A stretch of DNA of 64,000 bases from Fervidicoccaceae archaeon (GTDB lineage Archaea > Thermoproteota > Thermoprotei_A > Sulfolobales > Fervidicoccaceae), in NCBI GenBank assembly GCA_038878695.1, contig JAVZVD010000001.1:248001-312000 (forward strand), in the 5' to 3' direction. Shown here piece after piece: positions 540 to 48,377 of the stretch (position 1 is the first letter of the stretch; each line of letters opens with the position of its first letter). Below the pieces are notes generated by a model. That model saw only the letters and a list, made by a program, of their open reading frames with translations. It did no database searches and was not told the DNA's origin. The translations under genes were made by a program, and so were the position numbers.

Positions 540-2237
540 TCACCTCGCCGCGCGTGGGTCCAGGCGAAGAGGGGGCTCGGGATCGACCTCTACGAGGCTC
601 AGTGTAGAGGAGTCGGGCAGTTTAATCACGATTTGACCTACCCCTAATGCCTGGAGAATCGACGCGAGCTCCCCCTTCCGGCCCCCCAAAAGCCTCTCCA
701 ACGTCTCGGCATAGACGGAGTCACTTGAGCCAAAAGCCACGATTGTTCCGAAGTTAGCGAGAATCTCGTTGGGCAGATCAATTAGGCTCTGCGTTGAGAG
801 GATAAGCCCCGTACCAAAGCCGCGGCTCTCCTTGACCAGCCTCTTGGTGAAGTACAACGTTGACTCGCTCAGCCTCCAGGCCTCATCGATTATTAAGAGC
901 CTCCTCAGAGTTGAGGAGGGTCCAATGGAATACATGAGGTCTAGATATGTGCTCAGGATAGCGGCTATAATGGCGAATCTCCCTTCGTCGGTCAAGTTTT
1001 CTAAGAGCAGAGCAGACCAGCGCTCGCCCAACGAATCTTTTATCGATACCGAGCCGCTCTCTGGCGGATCGACGTAAACGAGGCGTATTCCGAGATCCCT
1101 TTCCAAGCTCTCAACGGTCTGGAGGCTCCGGTCGAGCTTCTTAGTCGAGTCAAGCGACAGTCGCCTCCACCTCTGTCCCTCGAGGACTCGCTCCAATGCT
1201 GCCAAAGCCACCTCGGCGGCTTTCGGTTCGAGCCTCGTAGAATAAGAGAATCTGTACCTCTTGTAGCCTTTCGCTAGAAGCTTATCGGTATCTCCCTTTG
1301 GATCTATCAATGTTACATCTACGAGATTCCTGGCGTATAGTCTATTAGCCACAGTCGCTAGGAAAGTCGTCTTGCCCTTGCCAGTCGGTCCCACGACCAG
1401 TACGTGTCTCGAACCGTATTTGCTCAAGTCAAGGAGAAAGGGGATTCTCGTGCCCACTCTATAGCCGACCAGCACTCCTCTCGGGCTCAGACTTTCTCTC
1501 TCGAACGGAGGTAACGCGAGCGACGACGCAGACTCAACGACTCCTCCTACGGAAGTCTTCACCCTTGGGGCGCTCAAGAGAAGCGACTCCAACATGGGGG
1601 ACAGGGCTCTCCGCTCCAAGATCTTGGCCCTGGCGCCGAGCGCTATCGTGAGGGCTCTCGAAAGCTGCTGCGCTTCTCCACGCAACGCGTCAATTACGCT
1701 CTTCTTGTCCTGACCTCGCGTCCGGACGACGACGTAGAATCTTAGCCACCCGAGCCTCTCGCCGTTCCTAAGCCTCTCGTACATTCTTTTCAAAGCTCGT
1801 TCCCTCTCTCTTAACTTCTCGTCGTCCTGCTGCGAGCTCAGCACGGCTCTCAGCGAGCTGAGCTCCCTCTCGACTCGGCTGGCTAATTCGAGCGGATCCA
1901 CTCCTTTTCGAGCGACCCTTAGTTCGACCTCCGTTGATGCGTTAGAGAGAATCTTCCCTAGCACCAAAGCTCTATTGAAGAAGGCATCAGGAGTCCTGGC
2001 CTCCTCTACGAAGCTCTCGTCGAGGCCTATGACAGCGAAGCCAATGTAGCCTCTGCCCCCTCTCAGCTCAGCAACGACGAACTTACCATCGACAAGCTCA
2101 ATGCGTCGCGCGCGCCCGCTCACGAAGTTCTCAGCGCTTAGCAGGCCTACGCGGAGCGTGCGCGCGTACATGTAGGCTATCAGGGGGGACGCAAAGAGCG
2201 TCAAAATCAGCGGCATCCACGGAGACACAAACGTCAC
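540..2237 (-). CDS. VirB4/HerA-type P-loop ATPase of a Ced-like DNA transfer operon
   Basis: A 565-residue ATPase with one N-terminal hydrophobic segment (about residues 8-24), a poorly conserved middle region with a charged coiled stretch (about 115-160), and a C-terminal motor domain. Walker A is GPTGKGKT at 283-290, Walker B is LLIIDEA at 447-453, and STQS at 481-484 fits the sensor region of VirB4/TrbE/HerA motors. The GTG start overlaps the upstream membrane gene by 4 nt (GTGA), which suggests translational coupling. Partners in the operon are a pilin-like protein and a multi-pass membrane protein, as expected for a conjugation-like DNA pump. Known: crenarchaeal CedB is a VirB4/HerA homologue that powers DNA import. 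Inferred: this protein has a similar role. It may instead be a paralogue of CedB, because two other such ATPases are in the window. Confidence 0.72.
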   Translation of the reverse strand: MTFVSPWMPLILTLFASPLIAYMYARTLRVGLLSAENFVSGRARRIELVDGKFVVAELRGGRGYIGFAVIGLDESFVEEARTPDAFFNRALVLGKILSNASTEVELRVARKGVDPLELASRVERELSSLRAVLSSQQDDEKLRERERALKRMYERLRNGERLGWLRFYVVVRTRGQDKKSVIDALRGEAQQLSRALTIALGARAKILERRALSPMLESLLLSAPRVKTSVGGVVESASSLALPPFERESLSPRGVLVGYRVGTRIPFLLDLSKYGSRHVLVVGPTGKGKTTFLATVANRLYARNLVDVTLIDPKGDTDKLLAKGYKRYRFSYSTRLEPKAAEVALAALERVLEGQRWRRLSLDSTKKLDRSLQTVESLERDLGIRLVYVDPPESGSVSIKDSLGERWSALLLENLTDEGRFAIIAAILSTYLDLMYSIGPSSTLRRLLIIDEAWRLSESTLYFTKRLVKESRGFGTGLILSTQSLIDLPNEILANFGTIVAFGSSDSVYAETLERLLGGRKGELASILQALGVGQIVIKLPDSSTLSLVEVDPEPPLRLDPRAAR

Positions 2238-3640
2238 CAGACCACCATGGGAAGCCTCTCTCTAGCGCCCCCAATGAGGTAAGCGATCGCTCCAGCCGCG
2301 GAGCTTAACAGTGCGACGTAGACCGCTGGCATGACTACGAGAGATAAGATCAACGAGGCCGCTAGTCTGGTCAGGTCGGTCGATGGAGAGAAGCCTATGG
2401 AGTCCACGAAACGCCTTTCGGAGGTCATGGGCGTTTTGAGCGGCCCGCACTCGATAACCTCGGCTCGCACGAAGACCGTAGAGTTCCCCGGGATCCCGAC
2501 CTTCTTAACTAGCCCCTCTAATTGGGCCCACTCAAAGCTTGCCTCCTCGACCTCGACGCCTGCTCCAAGCGCCTGCACTTCAACGTTGCAAGAACTGGGG
2601 TAGCGCACTTCCAAGTAGCCCGAGCCGCCGTGTGCCTCCACCTCCACCTCGAGAGATCGCTCGTTGGTGCTCAACACACGAACTCCCACGTTGGAGCTCC
2701 TATAAATCGCAGTGAGCGGCTCAAGCTCCCTGAGGAGGTAGAGCGATCTGGTCTCGAGCACGATGCTAGCTTGGGGCATATACTTAGTCGTTGGACGGTA
2801 ATGCAACGATGGAACTACGGGATCGGGCTCGAGAGGAGTGATCTTCCCCATGTAATCTAACAGTAACGTATAGGGGCCGATCGAGGGTAGTCCGCGATCC
2901 GGGAAGCCCGCCAAGATTACCCCATTCGCGTCGCCCAGATACGAGAGAACTTCGCTGCCGTTGAGTATTCCTCTCACCATAGGGTAAGAGACAGCGTATC
3001 CCAGAGCGTCCTTCACTTCTATGGCTCCATACTCGATCGCTTCGTTCGGAGCCCTGGGTAGAGTAGCCGGATTCGCGAAATGATCAACGAAGCTTGGCAT
3101 CAAGGGGAGCCCAACGAAGAAAGCTATTGAGAAGCCCAGCATGTAGGAGCCTGCTGTCTTCGTCAGCCTAAAGGGCACGCTCATTAGCAAGAGGCCGAGC
3201 AAGAATAACTTAACGAAGGACCCCTTGATCACAACGCCGAGCGCTATTATCGTGTAGATTGTGAGAAGAGCGTAATTGACAGCTCTGCTCAGAGGATCCA
3301 AGAGGACTTGGGCGAACTGACCTCCCAAAACTTTCGATGCGGCAGCTGTGAGGAAGAGGACCTGTAGCTTCCAGCCGAGCAACAGGGCGGATCTCTCGAG
3401 AACCCACACCGAGAAGTTCGCCCAATCCGCCCCGAGCAGACGTTGCAGGCGCGCAACTCCATAGAGAATGGTGCTTGAGCCTACCACTAGAATGAAAGCG
3501 AACAACGCATCTTTAATTAGTGCTGGGCCCCACCTCTTGAGGCCTGGCAGAGGTATTGGTAGCGTTAGTACGAGTACCCCGAGAGCGTAGGTCAACAGCG
3601 CTAGCGCCGATGCCAGCAGCAACAGCTCTCCGTCACTCAA
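2234..3640 (-). CDS. CedA-like multi-pass membrane protein with large extracytoplasmic domain
   Basis: A 468-residue membrane protein. About six hydrophobic segments lie in residues 5-190. A soluble, beta-rich domain of roughly 220 residues follows (about 190-415), then one or two hydrophobic C-terminal segments (425-455). Residues 25-60 carry a motif (PxP, LKR, LI, DAL, then ST) that recurs in the two-helix protein encoded just upstream. Position, topology and partners fit the membrane channel component (CedA, VirB6-like) of the crenarchaeal DNA import system. The Sulfolobus CedA I know of is shorter, so the extracellular domain looks like an extension. Function is inferred from context and topology only. 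Confidence 0.6.
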   Translation of the reverse strand: MSDGELLLLASALALLTYALGVLVLTLPIPLPGLKRWGPALIKDALFAFILVVGSSTILYGVARLQRLLGADWANFSVWVLERSALLLGWKLQVLFLTAAASKVLGGQFAQVLLDPLSRAVNYALLTIYTIIALGVVIKGSFVKLFLLGLLLMSVPFRLTKTAGSYMLGFSIAFFVGLPLMPSFVDHFANPATLPRAPNEAIEYGAIEVKDALGYAVSYPMVRGILNGSEVLSYLGDANGVILAGFPDRGLPSIGPYTLLLDYMGKITPLEPDPVVPSLHYRPTTKYMPQASIVLETRSLYLLRELEPLTAIYRSSNVGVRVLSTNERSLEVEVEAHGGSGYLEVRYPSSCNVEVQALGAGVEVEEASFEWAQLEGLVKKVGIPGNSTVFVRAEVIECGPLKTPMTSERRFVDSIGFSPSTDLTRLAASLILSLVVMPAVYVALLSSAAGAIAYLIGGARERLPMVVW

Positions 3641-3650
3641 TCAAAGCCCC

Positions 3651-3905
3651 TCAACTAGGCGAGATCTCGATCGCCACCACTTGGACTAGATATGAGATCA
3701 CGGAGAAAACAGTCGAACCCATTGCTAGCCAGAATGCCGCCCACAGAGCATCCTCGATGAGGCTCTGACCCGCTCTCTTGAGTCTGGCTACTGGCAGAGG
3801 AGAGCCCCTCAGGACCCATCCAATGCTCCAGGTCAATGCGAAGAGAGCCCACGCGAGCAACGCCACTTGGGTAGCTACGTTATTGACAAATTCTACCAGC
3901 GTCAC
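3651..3905 (-). CDS. CedA1-like two-helix pilin-type membrane protein
   Basis: An 84-residue protein consisting almost entirely of two hydrophobic helices (about residues 10-32 and 52-76) joined by a short basic loop (PLPVARLKR). This is the architecture of VirB2-type pilins and of archaeal CedA1, which was shown in Aeropyrum to form a conjugative-type pilus. The gene sits 10 nt upstream of the large membrane protein and in the same operon as two VirB4/HerA ATPases. The loop and second helix match the N-terminal part of that larger protein. Assignment to CedA1 rests on size, topology and neighbours, not on a search. Confidence 0.6.
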   Translation of the reverse strand: MTLVEFVNNVATQVALLAWALFALTWSIGWVLRGSPLPVARLKRAGQSLIEDALWAAFWLAMGSTVFSVISYLVQVVAIEISPS

Positions 3906-3951
3906 GCGCGCTCAGCCTATGAATAGCGGACCCTTTAAAGGAGAGCTCACG

Positions 3952-4263
3952 TTATTTTCTGGCTTTCCTCCTCTCTCGCCTTCTTCTAGTAGCCTCTCGC
4001 GTCGCGTCTTCTACCTCGAGAGTCGAGTAGATCTCGGTCAATATCGAGGGATCTAATGCTCCCCGGAGGGCTGCTTTTATAAGTTCGAGTACTCTTAGAA
4101 ACTTTGAGAGCTCCTCGGGCGAGAGCTCTCCCTCGCCTATTTCCTCTTCCTCGACCTCCCCAGGCACCGTCTCTTCTTCCATCGTCAGCTCGTCGCTTGC
4201 CTCCTCAGTCTCACTCGCGTACAAAGGTTGACACACCCTTAGTGTGACGAACTGGGTGTGCAC
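3952..4263 (-). CDS. Small acidic hypothetical protein in the Ced-like operon
   Basis: Up to 103 residues from a GTG at 4263, which overlaps the end of the upstream ATPase gene by 25 nt. A GTG at 4236, a TTG at 4224 or an ATG at 4182 would avoid or reduce this overlap and remove an unconvincing N-terminus. The body has a strongly acidic segment (Glu-rich, about residues 28-50), an amphipathic helical segment with SPEELSKFLRVLELI, and a very basic tail ending in RRRRERRKARK. I do not recognise a family. The acid-helix-basic layout suggests an adaptor or regulatory subunit between the ATPase and the membrane components, but this is only context. Confidence 0.55.
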   Translation of the reverse strand: MHTQFVTLRVCQPLYASETEEASDELTMEEETVPGEVEEEEIGEGELSPEELSKFLRVLELIKAALRGALDPSILTEIYSTLEVEDATREATRRRRERRKARK

Positions 4264-6113
4264 TCACTCACTTCGAAGAGTAAAAGGTTATCTCTTAGTT
4301 CTCCGCTTATGAGAGCATAGCCTCGAGGAAGAACTCTAAGCGTGCTTTTGAGAAGCTCTACGAGCTCTCTGCTGCGCAGAGGAGCGAGATAGTCTACGGC
4401 GCGCTCGAGTTCCCGCCCAGAGACTCGAAAGGATATCCTGGTGGCCACATTGGCGAGGACTCGTTCATCGAAGTCCACGAGGCTTTGACTGATCAGAACT
4501 AGTGCTAGTTTATACTTGCGGGATTCGGCGACGAGTCTAACGACAAAGTCGTTGGTAGAAGGGTCGACCAACGCGCGGTGAGCTTCGTCTATTATCAACA
4601 TAAGGGGTTTATCGGGAAGACGCGTTTTATATGCATAAATCTTTCTCAATAGAAGGCCTAGGTAGAGGCTTTGTAAACCCTCATGAGGTATACCGCTCAA
4701 ATTGAGCACTACATTTCTCGAGAGTAACTCCTCAGCGTCTACGCTGGCGGCGTCTCTCGATGTGATCTCTGCGAGTAGTCTCATGTAGCTGCGGAGAGAC
4801 TCCGCTCTGGGCGCCAGAGCTGGTCTTTCTTTCGCAATTTTGTCTAACACGCGTAGAAGGTCCTCGAGAGTCGGCGACTTATTAGACCACGTGACGGGGT
4901 TCTGGGAGGAAATGCCGACCTCCTCGTAAGATCTTTCGATCGCTTCCATCAGGAGTGCGCGCTGGGCTCCCCCTAGCGAGAACACATTTGCAATGGAGAA
5001 GCTCAGCTCGAGTGCCTTTAGATGAGGAGGGAACCCGTCGAGGTCTAAGGGATTGATGGGAGTCTTCGATGCGTCTACTAGCGCGAAGCCCGCCGTCGCC
5101 ATGGACTCTCCGTACTCTCCATGGAGATCCACTATCAACGTAGTCAACTGTCGACGCGCCGCTTCCTTAGCTAACAGCTTCGCCAAAGTGCTCTTCCCCG
5201 AGCCGCTTTCGCCGAATATTATAAGGTGGGGATTTCTGCTACCGAACAAATCAAGTAATAGTGGAACACGAGAGATATCTACCCAACGTTTGGAACTATT
5301 TACAGTCTTATTGATTTCTCTAACAAAGTTTATTTGTGATTCTTTGCCTTTCTCGCCAATCACGGATGCCACATAGCCTATGCAGAGACCTCGCCATTCT
5401 GAGGGAAGCCCAGCGAAGCTCACGCGCTGCCCCCCCTCGCCACCCCGTCTAGCCCATTCCAGCACTAAGGGAAACCAGGAGGGCCCGAGGGGAGAGCCTA
5501 GGGCTAGGAGCCCCGTCGCCAGCTTGTCCTCAACAAGCAGGCCGACGGCTAAGCCGAGCACGAGCGAGTGAGCGAGCCAGGAGAGCGAGCCTCCGTAAAT
5601 CTCGGCGACGCCCCCATCACTTGCCAATCCCGTGACACCGAAAGCCATGAGGGTTACCCCGACCGCGAGAAGAAGTCTCCCGATATCGACTTCGAGCCTC
5701 GGCGTGGGGAATAGCAACCTGACTGGAGAGCGTCGACCCAGGAGTCGCGCAGCGGCCCTCAAGGTCGTGTACGATAGAGCAATGGATCCCAAAAGTAACG
5801 CCGACAGCGACAATGAGAGCCTTAAGCTCAATATCATCGTAGGATAGCAGAGCATGAGCGTTAGCAGAAGAGATCTCGTTACTAAGAGTGAGGCTAAGGC
5901 CAACGTGAAGAACAACGCAGAAGACGCCGCGATCTCGAGGGGAACGTGATATATGCTTGTATTTGTTTGTAAGAGTGAAGAAAGCTTTTGAGCTGAGATG
6001 TGCCACGCGAAGATCAGAATCGCTAGCGACGCGGAACGGAGTACCCTGGTCGCTATTGACCCGCGAGAGCTTCGTGATATGTCCACGGGCTCCGCGAACC
6101 CTCTGATCGCCAT
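4239..6113 (-). CDS. Multi-pass membrane HerA/VirB4-type ATPase
   Basis: A membrane-anchored motor. The family-like start is the ATG at 6111-6113 (624 residues); a TTG at 6164 in the same frame would add 17 residues and collide with the divergent helicase gene. The first 230 residues hold about six to seven hydrophobic segments. The cytoplasmic motor follows, with Walker A GESGSGKST, a VDLHGEYG segment typical of HerA-like pumps about 20 residues later, and Walker B LMLIIDEAH near residue 505-512. It is the first gene of the Ced-like operon. Coupling-protein-like or VirB4-like roles in DNA translocation are possible; the N-terminal membrane domain favours a membrane-bound DNA pump. The exact CedB assignment among the three such ATPases here is open. 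Confidence 0.7.
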   Translation of the reverse strand: MAIRGFAEPVDISRSSRGSIATRVLRSASLAILIFAWHISAQKLSSLLQTNTSIYHVPLEIAASSALFFTLALASLLVTRSLLLTLMLCYPTMILSLRLSLSLSALLLGSIALSYTTLRAAARLLGRRSPVRLLFPTPRLEVDIGRLLLAVGVTLMAFGVTGLASDGGVAEIYGGSLSWLAHSLVLGLAVGLLVEDKLATGLLALGSPLGPSWFPLVLEWARRGGEGGQRVSFAGLPSEWRGLCIGYVASVIGEKGKESQINFVREINKTVNSSKRWVDISRVPLLLDLFGSRNPHLIIFGESGSGKSTLAKLLAKEAARRQLTTLIVDLHGEYGESMATAGFALVDASKTPINPLDLDGFPPHLKALELSFSIANVFSLGGAQRALLMEAIERSYEEVGISSQNPVTWSNKSPTLEDLLRVLDKIAKERPALAPRAESLRSYMRLLAEITSRDAASVDAEELLSRNVVLNLSGIPHEGLQSLYLGLLLRKIYAYKTRLPDKPLMLIIDEAHRALVDPSTNDFVVRLVAESRKYKLALVLISQSLVDFDERVLANVATRISFRVSGRELERAVDYLAPLRSRELVELLKSTLRVLPRGYALISGELRDNLLLFEVSECTPSSSH

Positions 6114-6158
6114 GGGGTCGGTGGAGAAATAAATCGTTACGAGTGGAGGCTGGCCGCT
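6114..6158. promoter_or_regulatory. Short divergent promoter region between the Ced-like operon and the Lhr helicase
   Basis: Only about 45 nt separate the preferred ATG of the ATPase operon (6113, leftward) from the TTG of the helicase gene (6159, rightward). The spacer contains an A-rich stretch (AAATAAATCG at 6127-6136) as the only TATA-like sequence. No clear Shine-Dalgarno sequence precedes either start, which suits leaderless or nearly leaderless transcripts. Promoter positions are by eye. Confidence 0.35.
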
Positions 6159-8987
6159 TTGCAACGTATTAACGAGGGGCGGGGAGTGGAGGGAGCTTTC
6201 AGGCTCTTAGACCCGAGACTAGCGAGCGCCCTAGTGAGGCGAGGGATCACAAAGCCCACTCCTATCCAAGAGAGAGCAATCCCCCTAATTCTCTCCGGGA
6301 GAGATGTCATAATGTGCTCCCCTACTGGGACTGGTAAGACCGAAGCGGCAGTTTTACCCGTGCTCTCTCTCATGTTGCAGGAGGGCCGTCCAAAGGCTCC
6401 TCGGATGATCTACGTGACTCCTCTTCGTGCCCTCAACCGGGACGTCTACAGTAGGTTAAAGGAAATATCTGACGAAGTGGGATTACGCTCCATGGTTAGA
6501 CACGGCGATTCCACCGCTAGAGAGCGACGGGATTTTCTCGCATCTCCGCCAGCGTGGTTCATCACTACGCCAGAGAGTCTTTCAATGATGATCTCTCACG
6601 AGCGGCTGAGGCCTCTGCTATCGGGCATCAAGTGGGTCATCGTAGACGAGCTCCACGAGCTCATCGATGACGAGAGAGGAGCTCAGTTGGAGGTAACGTT
6701 GCTCAGATTGAGAAACTTCACAAGAGGCTACCAGTTCATAGGAGCGACGGCCACACTTTCTGATCCGATGCTTTATAGAAAATTCTACCCGTGTAGGCGC
6801 GAATGCGTGATACTCGAAGAGCGCCAGCACAAAGAGGCCGAGTATAGTGTGACTACCTGCGGCACGCCGTGCTTGGAGGGCTCAAAGCGTTACGTAGAAT
6901 GGGCGTTCGAGCAGATGGTCGAGACGCTCAAGCGGCATCGCTCAGTCTTGGTCTTTACTAATACTAGAGAGGAGTCGGAGCTCTTGGGCTACGAATTTAG
7001 GAGCAGAGGCGAGAGCTGGCTGGGAGTGCATCACGGCAGTTTGTCATTAGACTACAGGAAAAACGTAGAGGAGGGGCTGAGGTCGGGAGAACTCAGAGCG
7101 GTGGTCGCTACATCGAGTCTCGAACTCGGGATAGATGTGGGCACAATAGATGTAGTGTTTCATGTGAGGAGCCCTAGGCAAGTATCGAAGTTGATCCAAC
7201 GAGTTGGCCGCAGCGGTCACGCGCCAGGACGAACGGCCCACGGCGTGATCCTGGCCGAGTCAAATATCGATGATATCATAGAGTCTCTCGTCATAGCGAG
7301 AAGAGCCCGAGCTGGTTTGTTAGAGCGTCCCAGAGTTCATAAGAGCCCTCGCGATGTGCTGCTACATCAACTGGTCGGAATGACTCTCTCCGGGGAGGTC
7401 AAGCGAGTCACCGACGCTCTGGAGATTCTGGAGCGTAGCTTCACCTTCAGCGAGACAGCTCGAGAGGAACTCTCCAAGGTCTTGGAGTACGCTCAACACG
7501 TGGGGCTTCTGAAAATGAGTGGCTCGGGTGAGCTTTTCCCAACTAAGAGAACTCGCGCTTTCTACTTCGCCACCACTATGATCCCGGACACGAGGAGACT
7601 GCCCGTGAAGTCTTTAAGTGGAGAGAACCTGGGCCTCCTCGACGAGGACTTCGTGGCTGCAAAATTGGAAGAGGGATCCACATTCCTCTTGGCTGGACGG
7701 GAATGGCGCGTCGTGGCTGTGAACAACGAGGAGGTGATCGTCGAGGAGTGCGCCGAGAAGCGCGGCATCCCCCCCTCTTGGGAGGGGGACATGATTCCGG
7801 TGGGGAGAGAAGTCGCGCGAGAAGCCTGCTCTATTCTGAGGAGGCTCTGGCTAGGCGAGCCTATTGACAAAGTCGTTGCACACTATCGCGGCGCGTCCGG
7901 CGAGGTCTGGGATTTCCTATTGACCGTAACGAGGAGAGCTAAGGATCAAGGCTTCTTGCCACCGGGGCCCAATTACGTGTTGATAGAGGTTGACGAGCGC
8001 GATGAAGTGGCTATACTCTACGCCTGCCTTGGTAGTCGAGGTAACGATGCGTTGGCGATCTTGCTCTGTAGCCACATAAATGCAAGGCTAGGTCGCGCGG
8101 CTAAGTGTGCCAGCGATCCTTACAGAGTCTACGTGGAGGTAACTCGACGGAGCGTTTCGAAAGTATTGGAGGAAACATTAAGAGCTCTCTCTTCAGCTTC
8201 GCCGGAAGAACTGAAGAATGAGTTCATTGAGGGAGTAAAGAAGACCGGGCTCTTCCGCTGGAGAACGCTGCAGGTCGCGAGGAAAATGGGGGCTATTTCT
8301 CCAGATGCGACTATCGAGAACATCAGGCAAGTAGCTCGTTACCTAACGGAAACCGTTGTGGGAGAAGAGGCTCTCCGCGAGCTGCTCACCGAGAAATTAG
8401 ACCTGGACCTGATCATAGAGATCCTCCAAGGCGTCGGCTCGGGTAGGATCAAAGTGTTAATGCAACCTAAGCGCGGACTCAGTCCCTACACGCTCTACGG
8501 TGGTTACGGGGCCCGCCGACTCCATCTTCAACTCGAGAAGCCACACGACGAGCTTTCCCTGGTTCTCTTCGAGAAGCGCCTGCTAGAAAAAAAGATGCTA
8601 CTGAAGTGCATCCGTTGCGGTTGGGAGCGTGAGGTAGTGGTTCGCGAATTGGAGGATCGGCCAACGTGTCGAAGATGCGGATCTCGAGCTTTAGCGCCTA
8701 TACATCCCAGTAGCACCGATCTCCTCGACTTGCTGAGAAGATGCATGAGCTCGAGCGAGGAGTGCAACCGAGAGGATGCGAAAATCTTCGAGGAGGCTGT
8801 TCAGAGAGCCAACCTGGTCTTGGCGCACGGAAGGGCAGCCGTCATAGCCATGGCAGCTTACGGTGTGGGGCCTCGCGCGGCCTCGCGGGCCCTCTCGAAG
8901 CTTAAGCTAGGGTGGAGGGACTTCCTGGAGGCTTTGTTCAATGAGGAGAGGAACTACTTGAGGACGAGGAAGTACTGGAACGACTGA
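6159..8987 (+). CDS. Lhr-type superfamily 2 ATP-dependent helicase
   Basis: A 942-residue helicase from a TTG start; a GTG at 6186 is an alternative that begins nearer the conserved N-terminus. RecA domain 1 has the Q-motif region (PTPIQ, about 33-37), Walker A SPTGTGKTE (54-62), VDELHEL (162-168) and GATATL. RecA domain 2 ends in GRSGH. The C-terminal part is typical of large helicase-related (Lhr) proteins and contains a four-cysteine zinc module (CIRC and CRRC, about 816-842). Archaeal Lhr proteins unwind DNA or RNA:DNA duplexes and have been linked to repair and recombination. It is monocistronic in appearance and divergent from the DNA-import-like operon. I did not try to separate aLhr1 from aLhr2. 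Confidence 0.9.
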   Translation: MQRINEGRGVEGAFRLLDPRLASALVRRGITKPTPIQERAIPLILSGRDVIMCSPTGTGKTEAAVLPVLSLMLQEGRPKAPRMIYVTPLRALNRDVYSRLKEISDEVGLRSMVRHGDSTARERRDFLASPPAWFITTPESLSMMISHERLRPLLSGIKWVIVDELHELIDDERGAQLEVTLLRLRNFTRGYQFIGATATLSDPMLYRKFYPCRRECVILEERQHKEAEYSVTTCGTPCLEGSKRYVEWAFEQMVETLKRHRSVLVFTNTREESELLGYEFRSRGESWLGVHHGSLSLDYRKNVEEGLRSGELRAVVATSSLELGIDVGTIDVVFHVRSPRQVSKLIQRVGRSGHAPGRTAHGVILAESNIDDIIESLVIARRARAGLLERPRVHKSPRDVLLHQLVGMTLSGEVKRVTDALEILERSFTFSETAREELSKVLEYAQHVGLLKMSGSGELFPTKRTRAFYFATTMIPDTRRLPVKSLSGENLGLLDEDFVAAKLEEGSTFLLAGREWRVVAVNNEEVIVEECAEKRGIPPSWEGDMIPVGREVAREACSILRRLWLGEPIDKVVAHYRGASGEVWDFLLTVTRRAKDQGFLPPGPNYVLIEVDERDEVAILYACLGSRGNDALAILLCSHINARLGRAAKCASDPYRVYVEVTRRSVSKVLEETLRALSSASPEELKNEFIEGVKKTGLFRWRTLQVARKMGAISPDATIENIRQVARYLTETVVGEEALRELLTEKLDLDLIIEILQGVGSGRIKVLMQPKRGLSPYTLYGGYGARRLHLQLEKPHDELSLVLFEKRLLEKKMLLKCIRCGWEREVVVRELEDRPTCRRCGSRALAPIHPSSTDLLDLLRRCMSSSEECNREDAKIFEEAVQRANLVLAHGRAAVIAMAAYGVGPRAASRALSKLKLGWRDFLEALFNEERNYLRTRKYWND

Positions 8988-9014: not shown

Positions 9015-9773
9015 TCATACCCTTGGCGCTATCCAATAGCGCGCTTCTCCTCCTCCGACCAACTCGAACGAGATCCTCGCCGGTTGCGCTGTTCCGAAGC
9101 CGAAGGTCATCACTGTCTGCGGGGAGGCCGCTCTCAGCGTGGAAGCGATGAGTTTTACAGCATAACTAGCGCGGGCCTCATCGACTGTCGAAGAGAGATC
9201 GGTGAGGGGCTCGCCAAGGCGTAGTTCGGCTTCGTAGAGTACGTCGGCCTCCTCCGCTCTCAACACGACCGAGTTATTCGAGTACTCAAGCGTGATCTCT
9301 TCGGCCACGAGCTTAGCCTCCTGGAGCAGGACCTTCAAATCCTTGGCCTTAATCCCGAACTTCACCTGGACGTCGACTCTAGGCTCTCCTAGCATTTCGC
9401 CAGCCTCCAACGACACTGGAAGCTCGAACGACCTCGAGACGCTCGACTTCTTGTTGACGAACGTGAGCTTTAACCTCTTCTCGGATATATCGAGCGAGAG
9501 CTCGAGCGAGTCTCCTCTGAGAGCGCGCCTGACCACTCGCAGCAGCTCTCTGGTGCTCACCTTGAATCCTAGGGGCCTCTCTACCTCGAGCGACTCGAAC
9601 GAGTCAGGGGGCACGGAGAGTACAAGCATCACGGTCTTGTCCTCGCTGAGACTCCGGACGCTGATGCCCTTCTCGCTAACAAATATCGGCGCCTCGTCTA
9701 TAATTTGAGCTAGCGAGTGGGCTAGGGATTTGACCGCAAGCGCTTTAGGGAACATCATCTTGACAGAGAGCAT
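9015..9773 (-). CDS. pcn: DNA polymerase sliding clamp (PCNA)
   Basis: A 252-residue protein with the PCNA pattern: N-terminal FPKALAVKSLAHSL, the alternating beta-hairpin layout, an interdomain connector near the middle, and the C-terminal stretch ending in YWIAPRV, which matches the usual YxxAP(R/K) end. PCNA encircles DNA and tethers polymerase, ligase and FEN1. Crenarchaea often have three PCNA paralogues that form a heterotrimer; this window shows one, and which paralogue it is cannot be told from sequence alone. The gene is convergent with the helicase gene. Confidence 0.93.
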   Translation of the reverse strand: MLSVKMMFPKALAVKSLAHSLAQIIDEAPIFVSEKGISVRSLSEDKTVMLVLSVPPDSFESLEVERPLGFKVSTRELLRVVRRALRGDSLELSLDISEKRLKLTFVNKKSSVSRSFELPVSLEAGEMLGEPRVDVQVKFGIKAKDLKVLLQEAKLVAEEITLEYSNNSVVLRAEEADVLYEAELRLGEPLTDLSSTVDEARASYAVKLIASTLRAASPQTVMTFGFGTAQPARISFELVGGGEARYWIAPRV

Positions 9774-21193: not shown

Positions 21194-21564
21194 GCTCTAG
21201 TCTGTGCGAGGTGTGCGCGAGGAATAGAGCCTCGAGAGTTTGTAGCTTATGCGATAGGAGAGTTTGCGAGGAGTGCTCAGCTGATCTCTTAACTTCGAGC
21301 TCTGTTCTCTGCTCGATCTGCGCTTCAGCCCTCTGCGAGATCTGTAAAGCTAGCCTATCGAATGACTCGTGCGTGCTATGCGGCCGAAAGGTCTGCAGAG
21401 CTTGCGCAATCGAGCTGGATCAGGTCAAGAGGATATGCTCTGCGTGCGCGATGCGTTACAGCGACGCTTTCGGTGAGTACATGCTCAGGGTCGAGCGAGC
21501 TAGGCGCGGACTCCTTTCTCTCTTCGAGCGAAGACTCTCTTCTGGACGTGCCTCGAGCTGCTGA
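21184..21564 (+). CDS. Cysteine-rich zinc-binding hypothetical protein
   Basis: 126 residues from a GTG that overlaps the end of deoC by 10 nt. Sixteen or more cysteines fall in residues 8-88 in regular CxxC pairs (CEVC, CSLC, CEEC, CSIC, CEIC, CVLC, CRAC, CSAC), which looks like a duplicated B-box or RING-like cross-brace zinc fold. A charged helix forms the C-terminus. It probably mediates protein-protein contacts; no enzyme function can be read. Its 3' end overlaps the convergent CedB-like ATPase gene by 65 nt. Confidence 0.7.
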   Translation: MEVGSSLCEVCARNRASRVCSLCDRRVCEECSADLLTSSSVLCSICASALCEICKASLSNDSCVLCGRKVCRACAIELDQVKRICSACAMRYSDAFGEYMLRVERARRGLLSLFERRLSSGRASSC

Positions 21565-23179
21565 CGTGAGTTGAGCCGCCTCGCGCGCACCAACTCTTTT
21601 CGATTACTATAAGCGTTGGCTTCGGGCAAGAGGGAGAGGAAAAGAACGCCTCACCTATCTCGAGCCTAGGTAAGAGAACCCTCTCGTTATGCTCCAACGC
21701 CATGCTCTCCTCGAGGATTCTCATATCGATGTTAGAGCGGATTGCGTGAACTATTTTCGTGTTGAGATTTTTAATGAATTCGGGATTCACGCTGCTAGGA
21801 GACTGCGTCACGATCACCACTCCTATCCCGAACTTCCTTGACTCGGCGATCATCTTCGACACGAAGTTATCGACCGACTTAGGCATAATATTATGAGCCT
21901 CATCCACTACTAGCAGGATCCTCCCTCCGGCCCCCCCTCTCGCGTAGCGAGTTTGATAAATAAATTTAATCAGAGCCAATGAATATAGCTTCTTCAAATT
22001 AAAGTTCTTTATATTGCTCAAATTTATAACCTGAATCTCTCCATTACTCGGGGGTCTATAGACTGTTTTAGAGAAGAGAATTTTTCCCTCAGGTGAGTCT
22101 AAAAGTTCAAGTTTACGCAGTAGGGCGCCTCGGAGCTCGCGGTCCCAGTAGCCTTCGGGGGACTTGCTATCGAGCAGCGCTATCAATGAGCTTATTCCAA
22201 AGAGCGAGCCCCCGCTCTCTTTGAGGACTCTATAGAGCACCGCCGATTGGGGGGCGGAAAGCGATAAAACGTCCTCCAACATGCTCACGGCATCCTCGAT
22301 TGCTCCCTCTAGGGGATTCACTGACGCTGAGTCGTCCTCTAAGGGATCTAAGACCTCGACCCGCTCGGCACACGCCTCCTCTAGCAGGACACCGTACTCG
22401 CCGTGCCAATCCAGAATCACTACTGACATGCCAATTGAGGCCGCGCCGGTAGCCAAAACTGCCGAGGTGGTGGTTTTCCCGCTACCAGTCGAGCCAAAGA
22501 TTCCCACGTGCCTCAGCAACTCCTCGGCGGTTAGCCCGAGTGGGCTGCCAGTGCGCTTACAGCGTCCCACATAAACTAAAGCTTCCTCTTTGGGGAGCTC
22601 CCTGCTGTTGCCCCACGCGTCGTGCCTAAGCTGTTTCCCGAATAACTCGAAAAGGGCATCTGGGCTCGACGTGTACTTCGTTGAGTGCTCAGGGCACTTG
22701 AAGGACTCGTCGCGCTTCCACCGGATCTCTGGCTCTAGACTCCTCAAGAAGCCCTCAATGAACTCGACCTTGGAAGGATCCATGTCGGACAAGCAGAGAT
22801 GAAGCGCCGCCCCTCTCGGCGATAAGCTCAATATCAGACTGCTCTCGGAGCCCCAATGCCTAGATTTGTTTTTGATTAGAGAGTAGAGCGCGGCCAGAGC
22901 TTTCTCGCTCTCGGTTGAGTCAATGATCTCGAGCCTCCACGCACGAGCCTCTTTCTCGCGGACTCGTCCCCTTTTTCTGTACAAAACGAAGAGCGAAACG
23001 CATAACGCTGTGAATACTAGTGCTAGAACAGCTGCTCTGTATCGAATCACGGAGGAATCGCCAACACCCTCCGAGAGCGAGTTAAGGAACTCGAGGAACT
23101 TTCCGATCTTGCCAGTTAACGCAAAACCTATTACAATCAGAACAACTCCCTGGAGAACTACGTCGCTCTTTCCGCGCAA
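21500..23179 (-). CDS. CedB-like HerA/VirB4 ATPase with N-terminal membrane anchor
   Basis: A 559-residue protein (TTG start) with two hydrophobic segments near the N-terminus (about 9-22 and 46-67), a middle domain, and a motor domain with Walker A GSTGSGKT (229-236), DWHGEYG (257-263), Walker B LLVVDEAH (422-429) and TQS (458-460). The pattern is that of HerA/VirB4 pumps, and its two-helix anchor plus stand-alone location resemble crenarchaeal CedB, which powers inward DNA transport. It is the third such motor in the window. The last 20 or so codons overlap the convergent Cys-rich gene, and its Cys/Ser-rich tail after LIVIEKSW looks unconserved. Confidence 0.75.
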   Translation of the reverse strand: MRGKSDVVLQGVVLIVIGFALTGKIGKFLEFLNSLSEGVGDSSVIRYRAAVLALVFTALCVSLFVLYRKRGRVREKEARAWRLEIIDSTESEKALAALYSLIKNKSRHWGSESSLILSLSPRGAALHLCLSDMDPSKVEFIEGFLRSLEPEIRWKRDESFKCPEHSTKYTSSPDALFELFGKQLRHDAWGNSRELPKEEALVYVGRCKRTGSPLGLTAEELLRHVGIFGSTGSGKTTTSAVLATGAASIGMSVVILDWHGEYGVLLEEACAERVEVLDPLEDDSASVNPLEGAIEDAVSMLEDVLSLSAPQSAVLYRVLKESGGSLFGISSLIALLDSKSPEGYWDRELRGALLRKLELLDSPEGKILFSKTVYRPPSNGEIQVINLSNIKNFNLKKLYSLALIKFIYQTRYARGGAGGRILLVVDEAHNIMPKSVDNFVSKMIAESRKFGIGVVIVTQSPSSVNPEFIKNLNTKIVHAIRSNIDMRILEESMALEHNERVLLPRLEIGEAFFSSPSCPKPTLIVIEKSWCARGGSTHVSSSRHVQKRVFARREKGVRA

Positions 23180-26609: not shown

Positions 26610-27854
26610 CTAACCGCAGTATCCAGCTACGCCGCTGACCTCTTTCAGGTAGTCCGCCAGCCTCCCGATCTCGATGACCTCCTGGAGACCTTTGTCGCGG
26701 CGTCTGACTACTAGCGTCCCTGTCCTCTCCTCTCTCTCGCCAACTATCAGAGTCACGGGAGCCCACATCATTCCAGCCGAGCGTATCTTGGACCCTAGCG
26801 GTGTGGGCTCTACGTCTATCTTGTACCTGAGACGGCTCGAGGCAATGATTCTCTCGATCTCGGATATAAAATTCGACGAGACCCCGCCAACTGCGGCCAC
26901 GTAGACTTGAACGGGAGAGGCCGCGGAAGGTAGGAGAGGAGTCCCGCCCTCACTCACACGAGAGATCTCCGCCAGTAATGTGCTCATGTACAGCGCTAGG
27001 AGATTAATAGAGACTCCTCTAGCGGCTCGCATACCAATTTGAGCTGACCACTTATGGCCTAGAGCAATAATTGCTCCCTCGTTCTCGAGCACTGAGGCGC
27101 GACACGCGAGGTACCTTTCAATGACTCGCTCACTTGCCGGGAGTGAACGCTCAATGTAGAATGCGCGCTTGTTAGAGAGAATAAGCTCAGCCGGGAAAAG
27201 CGAGTCCTCGCTAGTCCAGCGCGGCTCTCGAACGAAGATTAACCCGCGACGCTCCGCGCCGCTCGAGACCTCCAATGCGACGCTTTCTATAGCCCACGCG
27301 AGTTCCGGGCTTAGCGAAAGCCCCCCCTCCTCGTTGATGCGAAGACCAAAGCGCTCAAAGTATCTCTCTGCTAGCTTCCCGAGCTCGCCTCCCTCGACTT
27401 TCACCGTGATACGAGGAATCAAAGCGCGCGGCGCGCGAGGAGCCGATCCCCCTATGTTCCTCGATAGCTCGCTGAGGGGATGGCCTGCCGCCTCCAACGA
27501 GAACCTCTTGTACCACCCGAAGGGTGCTCGATGAACCGTGAAGCCAGCTTCTCGCAGGACTCGCTCCAGCTCTCTCAGAAGATTCAGTGCCAGCGAGGGC
27601 TGAGCTGGCGAGCTCGAGAGATGTACGTAGGGATATAGCACGACCGACGACCTCTTCAGAGACCTTAGATGCGACGCGATGGACTCCACGGCTAGTGTTA
27701 CGGCCTCCGCGTCGTCTCCTTCCTCTATCGTGGTGAATGCTACTAGGCAGTCGTCGAAGCATCCGCTCTTAGGCTCGTCGTGCGGCTCAATTGCTACTGC
27801 CACTGGCTCATAGCAGAATTTGAGAGCGTGGATCTGCAGTAACCTCAAGAGCAT
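26610..27854 (-). CDS. Threonyl-tRNA synthetase editing protein without catalytic core (ThrRS-ed type)
   Basis: 414 residues. Residues 1-140 match the archaeal ThrRS editing domain (D-aminoacyl-tRNA deacylase fold): QIHALKF, LVAFTTIEEGD, VLYPYVHLSS and the strongly conserved APFGWYKRF and GHPLSELSR. The C-terminal 110 residues are an anticodon-binding domain (SPVQVYVAAV, LGSKIRSAG, GTLVVRRRD). The middle lacks class II motifs 1-3, so it cannot charge tRNA. In Aeropyrum and Sulfolobus the work is split between a catalytic ThrRS and a trans-editing protein that removes Ser from tRNA-Thr; this is the editing partner. No catalytic thrS lies in the window. Confidence 0.87.
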   Translation of the reverse strand: MLLRLLQIHALKFCYEPVAVAIEPHDEPKSGCFDDCLVAFTTIEEGDDAEAVTLAVESIASHLRSLKRSSVVLYPYVHLSSSPAQPSLALNLLRELERVLREAGFTVHRAPFGWYKRFSLEAAGHPLSELSRNIGGSAPRAPRALIPRITVKVEGGELGKLAERYFERFGLRINEEGGLSLSPELAWAIESVALEVSSGAERRGLIFVREPRWTSEDSLFPAELILSNKRAFYIERSLPASERVIERYLACRASVLENEGAIIALGHKWSAQIGMRAARGVSINLLALYMSTLLAEISRVSEGGTPLLPSAASPVQVYVAAVGGVSSNFISEIERIIASSRLRYKIDVEPTPLGSKIRSAGMMWAPVTLIVGEREERTGTLVVRRRDKGLQEVIEIGRLADYLKEVSGVAGYCG

Positions 27855-48276: not shown

Positions 48277-48377
48277 TGGTGCGGGGGCGGGGATTTGAAC
48301 CCCGGACGGCCTGCGCCAGCGGATGTCCCCCAAGCAACTTGAGTCCGCCCCCTTAGCCCAGGCTCGGGCACCCCCGC
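48277..48377 (-). tRNA. tRNA-Leu (CAA) with 13-nt intron
   Basis: The acceptor stem GCGGGGG (48377-48371) pairs with CCCCCGC (48287-48281), followed by discriminator A and an encoded CCA (48279-48277). The T-arm is CGGGG TTCAAAT CCCCG. A 14-nt variable arm with a GGC/GCC stem makes it class II. The anticodon stem is GCGGA/TCCGC with loop CTCAAG-A, so the anticodon is CAA. After position 37 a 13-nt intron (TTGCTTGGGGGAC) interrupts the loop at the canonical 37/38 site; CTTG of the intron pairs with CAAG of the exon, giving the bulge-helix-bulge that EndA cuts. The intron boundary could be shifted by one base. Confidence 0.93.

Follow-up and report, generated by a model that had tools for sequence, protein, structure and literature searches.

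The window analysed here, 64,000 nucleotides of contig JAVZVD010000001.1 (positions 248,001 to 312,000) in the 1.11-Mb genome of a Fervidicoccaceae archaeon, carries what its sequence identifies as a Ced DNA-exchange system of the ordinary chromosomal kind, with CedA1, CedA and CedB encoded side by side and CedD separately. Directly upstream of cedA1 stand the gene for the RNA polymerase subunit Rpo13 and a gene for a membrane-embedded motor, termed M3 here, which we assign to a distinct, order-wide family of HerA/VirB4-type motors with membrane helices. These two genes were probably placed upstream of cedA1, in the same direction, by a local inversion of an rpo13-M3-aLhr1 block. Taken jointly, we give the gene identities and the inversion a probability of about 0.8. 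The Ced genes are already known; the useful part is M3, an order-wide membrane motor family that occurs near ced and tends to vanish with Ced.

An earlier, sequence-only reading had described five adjacent minus-strand genes as a chromosomal Ced-type, VirB-like apparatus with two different motors, an enlarged CedA and a small acidic component. All five open reading frames (ORFs; 641, 103, 84, 468 and 565 amino acids) were found where it had placed them, the upper limit at 6113 being the first ATG of the M3 gene, and its Ced assignment was borne out. None of the features of this five-gene stretch is attributable to chance. The pilin-sized protein encoded at 3651-3905 (minus strand, 84 amino acids) does contain two hydrophobic helices and scores 122.4 bits against the CedA1 model of NCBIfam (NF041797), above the curated cut-off of 100. 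The proposed similarity to CedA1 was also recovered as a match to the solved, VirB2-like CedA1 pilus subunit of Aeropyrum pernix (PDB 8dfu, E=4.8e-26).

CedB is encoded at 540-2237 (minus strand, 565 amino acids) and is a HerA/VirB4-type ATPase with one N-terminal hydrophobic helix and the Walker A motif GPTGKGKT noted before. In an 84-row tree of motor domains with five starred clades (M3, CedB, CedD, HerA and archaeal VirB4), it sits in the CedB clade (support 100/96). Its gene overlaps cedA by four nucleotides (GTGA), as had been read from the sequence, and directly follows cedA here and in many relatives, among which the cedA1-cedA-cedB adjacency also recurs. CedD (21500-23179, minus strand, 559 amino acids), which completes the VirB4-like motor pair, is encoded about 15 kb from the ced cluster and falls in the CedD clade (100/99). 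A 2025 paper presents CedD as CedB's partner and likens the two together to VirB4 (PMC11868833). This arrangement, chromosomal, with CedA1, CedA and CedB adjacent and CedD elsewhere, is that of the Ced systems of Sulfolobales and A. pernix, from which the literature on the roles of the four proteins derives; rpo13 and M3 directly upstream set the window apart from the known loci.

Weighing against these assignments, CedA, CedB and CedD all fall below their curated NCBIfam cut-offs: CedB reaches 98.6 bits against 700 (NF041017, E=3.6e-28), CedD 296 bits against 600 (NF053655), and the CedA match (NF041796, E=5.1e-43) lies under a cut-off of 330. These thresholds seem to be tuned to Sulfolobaceae, because in our survey of 157 genomes of the order the CedB cut-off was passed in only 23, all of family f11, which corresponds to Sulfolobaceae. 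Survey genomes and families are designated by G-handles and f-numbers, respectively; family and species names of relatives were assigned from sequence and are uncertain. Our own profiles for CedA, CedB, CedD and M3 contain the window sequences and are thus not independent tests of these window proteins.

Since VirB-like parts are in general found on conjugative elements, the cluster could be read as an integrated conjugative element, or as part of an unrelated secretion or adhesion system, and not as a resident Ced locus. We consider this scarcely credible. The neighbouring genes rpo13, aLhr1 and pcna are core chromosomal genes in an order conserved across families, CedA1 was detected in 131 of the 157 genomes, and the best matches of the cluster are Ced families. 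A check of the 468-residue protein against unrelated secretion and adhesion systems likewise led back to CedA.

Several irregular Ced genes were encountered among the relatives. CedB appears to be split into two neighbouring ORFs of about 200 and 400 amino acids in family f5 (G031:C7:16600-18208, G021:C16 and G040:C15) and consists of the motor only, about 370 amino acids, in family f3. The CedD ORFs of many family f9 genomes (L064, L066 and others) span just ~350-390 amino acids, without the N-terminal part present elsewhere. L178 (JALWCE010000049.1), a contig filed under a Nitratiruptor metagenome-assembled genome, contains cedA1 and cedA of archaeal type and was probably binned in error. 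The Ted system of Thermoproteales (TedA, TedB, TedC) resembles Ced in its pilus, channel and motor derived from a type IV secretion system (PMC9905601), but differs from the window system in its VirB4-type motor TedB and cleaved pilin. In four Ced-less genomes (G004, G015, G034 and G044), the gene for a VirB4-type motor is accompanied, at a distance of a few kb, by one for another ATPase with a weaker match, which suggests a Ted-like system replacing Ced.

CedA (2234-3640, minus strand, 468 amino acids) is the VirB6-like channel of the system. Positions 215-257 of the NF041796 profile match its C-terminal end, it is 33% identical over its full length to CedA of the sister genome G007, and its N-terminus resembles CedA1, as reported for CedA (PMC9905601). 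The multi-pass architecture with an extracytoplasmic domain suggested by the sequence-only reading is reproduced in an AlphaFold2 model (predicted local distance difference test score, pLDDT, 87), in which helices at residues 3-189 are followed by strands at ~205-398 and a last helix at 423-456. The β-rich ectodomain predicted at ~203-400 follows the membrane helices and precedes the last one. A fold search with the CedA model returned, for the ectodomain, weak matches to Ig-like/CNA-B-like pilin and transthyretin-like folds (best E=1.1e-3, template modelling score 0.16), and no firm structural relative emerged.

The size of this protein, which had been taken as special, turned out to be the rule. 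We collected loci of relatives with a CedA1 alignment search and read 80 named loci; 72 of 78 CedA ORFs surveyed there measure 444-532 residues, and the short ones mostly come from Sulfolobaceae or are cut by contig ends. In the alignment, the short Sulfolobaceae CedA passes from the helical block to the last helix without an ectodomain, unlike the window protein and the CedA of A. pernix and most other groups outside Sulfolobaceae. Sulfolobaceae CedA is thus the short form, and most crenarchaeal CedA proteins carry an external β domain, a difference to be considered in modelling the channel and the pilus base.

The small acidic protein, previously regarded as part of the apparatus, is instead identified as Rpo13 by an orthologue profile and by position. 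Its gene (3952-4263, minus strand) encodes 103 amino acids from a GTG start or about 75 from the ATG at 4182. The window protein alone gave no Pfam match and only chance matches to solved structures. A small acidic ORF follows M3 as a rule in the loci read, however, and a profile of nine such positional orthologues, built without the window protein, matches PDB chains of Rpo13 (E=3.5e-18). Six of ten positional orthologues also match the Rpo13 Pfam model PF12136. The window ORF in turn matches the orthologue profile (E=4.8e-6) and has the Rpo13 layout of acidic N-terminus, helix-turn-helix core and basic C-terminus. A role as Ced accessory protein was rejected on these grounds.

Upstream of rpo13, the M3 gene (4239-6164, minus strand) diverges from a plus-strand gene for an aLhr1-type helicase (6159-8987; Pfam DEAD, DEAD_assoc and WH_Lhr), a conserved neighbour of ced and M3. 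A minus-strand gene for a homologue of PCNA (9015-9773; PF00705, E=1.9e-7) comes next, a neighbour conserved on the outer side of the rpo13-M3-aLhr1 block. In relatives, the common layout is rpo13< M3< aLhr1> cedA1> cedA> cedB>, in many cases with pcna beyond rpo13, and M3 is usually transcribed away from ced across the order. The window reads cedB< cedA< cedA1< rpo13< M3< aLhr1> pcna<, an order that reversal of the rpo13-M3-aLhr1 block would yield from the common layout. The sister genome G007 retains aLhr1> cedA1> cedA> cedB> and has no M3. A local inversion in the window lineage would account for M3 and rpo13 standing upstream of cedA1 in the same direction, an arrangement found at no other surveyed locus.

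A dedicated five-gene operon, in which an additional motor, an oversized CedA and an acidic accessory protein jointly define a distinct Ced variant, would fit the common direction, small gaps and one 4-nt overlap of the genes. We regard such a variant as very improbable: the acidic protein is assigned to Rpo13, the long CedA is the usual form, the shared direction of M3, rpo13 and cedA1 is confined to this locus, and the motor that was counted as part of the operon is conserved order-wide and apparently arrived here by the local inversion. In addition, the 46-bp gap before cedA1 holds a TATA-like TTTAAA some 33 bp ahead of the GTG start, plausibly an archaeal TATA box, and cedA1-cedA-cedB may therefore be transcribed separately from M3 and rpo13. 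Co-transcription of all five genes could still occur, with the single operon of the earlier reading unproven.

M3 comprises 641 amino acids, or about 624 from the first ATG at 6113, and combines ~5-6 predicted N-terminal helices with a motor domain carrying the Walker A motif GESGSGKST, one of the two P-loops reported before, and the Walker B motif LMLIIDEAH. The model of its membrane part is low in confidence. Ahead of the motor, where a VirB4-like N-terminal domain would be expected, only ~70-90 residues, modelled partly with low confidence, separate the last helix from Walker A. By sequence and predicted fold, the motor domain is nearest to the solved structures of DptH (7es4), HerA (4d2i) and VirB4 (4ag5), with E values of 8e-38 for DptH and 1.6e-29 for HerA. 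The HerA proteins of this genome and its relatives lack the polytopic N-terminus. In the motor-domain tree, M3 proteins form a clade of their own (support 100/95), apart from CedB, CedD, HerA and VirB4. Several N-terminal membrane helices are predicted in nearly all complete relatives checked, and the window protein shares the family traits of a polytopic N-terminus, a HerA-type motor, a position next to rpo13 and divergence from aLhr1. The impression that the membrane-embedded motor differs from CedB was hence correct, and the protein falls outside the CedB clade. CedD, its best NCBIfam match, was also rejected as an identity: NF053655 gives M3 88 bits compared with 296 for the protein at 21500-23179, and the two occupy separate clades in trees. 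CedD shares with M3 a HerA/VirB4-type ATPase with N-terminal membrane helices (PMC11868833), yet has two such helices, not five or six; the stretch of ~70-90 residues ahead of Walker A in M3 is a further difference.

In Sulfolobus, aLhr1 is SSO0394/Saci_0814 and Rpo13 is SSO0396/Saci_0816; M3, being flanked by these genes, should be SSO0395/Saci_0815. Searches of open-licence papers found no treatment of the M3 family and no match for CedC, SSO0395, Saci_0815 or SiRe_1604. The M3 gene is frameshifted in L184 (Pyrodictiaceae M1) and in L265 (G106), one of them Ced-positive and the other without detectable CedA or CedA1.

As to function, M3 is most likely an accessory, Ced-linked membrane DNA translocase, although we place a Ced-related role of any kind slightly below even odds. 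Two lines of evidence point to such a link. The first is proximity: among 51 genomes with both genes on one contig, M3 lies less than 20 kb from cedA1 in 29 of the 30 non-Sulfolobaceae genomes and in 7 of the 21 Sulfolobaceae genomes. The second is joint absence. M3 presence was read off profile scores of about 150 bits or more, with G011 and G072 added as positive from architecture or split profile matches, which makes the counts partly a matter of judgement. Completeness reached 90% or more in 111 genomes; of these, 59 of the 98 with CedA1 were scored as M3-positive, compared with 3 of the 13 without (p=0.016, or p=0.005 when G031 is counted as Ced-positive on account of its CedA fragment). 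Ced-less genomes tend to lack M3 as well: it is absent from ten of the 12-13 near-complete genomes without CedA1. PF12136 misses even the window's genome and was useless as a presence/absence control; aLhr1 neighbourhoods were read in its place. M3 alone is gone in Desulfurococcus-like genomes and genus g16, where rpo13 and aLhr1, the genes that would flank it, have stayed side by side.

Several observations count against this link. The p values ignore kinship among genomes. No M3 was found in A. pernix, a maker of CedA1 pili whose genome was recognised by its CedA1 sequence, nor in the Ced-positive families f3 and f7, most of f6 and the sister genome G007; M3 is therefore not essential to Ced and is accessory at most. 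The fragmented genomes G106 and G139 keep M3 without detectable CedA or CedA1, and a strict rule that M3 is always lost with Ced was discarded accordingly. Distances of 50-270 kb between M3 and ced occur in Sulfolobaceae, and wherever the surroundings of M3 were read in this family, it remains with rpo13, pcna and aLhr1.

The same observations fit a housekeeping membrane DNA translocase unrelated to Ced, serving chromosome segregation or stalled-fork repair, whose nearness to ced reflects an ancestral arrangement of the genes near rpo13, pcna and aLhr1, its conserved neighbours across the order. We accord this explanation a sizeable minority chance. FtsK/SpoIIIE translocases consist of a polytopic N-terminal membrane domain, a linker and a RecA-like motor, a layout that M3 shares. 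Its motor, however, is HerA/VirB4-like: the FtsK match is weak (E=2e-5), the FtsK_SpoIIIE Pfam match lies under its cut-off, and an FtsK/SpoIIIE-type motor was not accepted for M3. Unlike a segregation essential, M3 is missing from many genomes, complete ones included, and its absence from ten near-complete Ced-less genomes, in two lineages from between a retained rpo13 and aLhr1, is also at odds with a housekeeping function.

For the preferred reading, we envisage that CedA1 forms a hollow pilus and CedA a membrane channel that bears the ectodomain typical of groups other than Sulfolobaceae, while CedB and CedD would act as a VirB4-like motor drawing single-stranded DNA in for recombinational repair. 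The helices of M3 would hold its motor ring at the membrane, and M3, as an accessory translocase, would pump DNA in this same process of exchange or repair. It might also operate on the donor, or export, side, for which no ATPase is known (PMC11868833). That M3 is an unrecognised part of DNA exchange in this stronger sense, a HerA-type membrane pump that exports donor DNA or feeds the Ced channel and is kept mainly by Ced lineages, we consider unlikely. M3 occurs in genetically tractable Sulfolobus and assays for DNA import and export exist; the idea can therefore be put to the test at once.

Elsewhere in the window, a 414-residue threonyl-tRNA synthetase-like protein (26610-27854, minus strand) matches N- and C-terminal parts of threonyl-tRNA synthetase and the Ser-tRNA(Thr) hydrolase family, resembling the crenarchaeal split enzyme. 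The sole tRNA gene that ARAGORN reports in the 64 kb (48277-48377, minus strand) is a tRNA-Leu with anticodon AAG; a leucine tRNA with A34 would be out of the ordinary for an archaeon, and the anticodon may have been misread on account of an intron.

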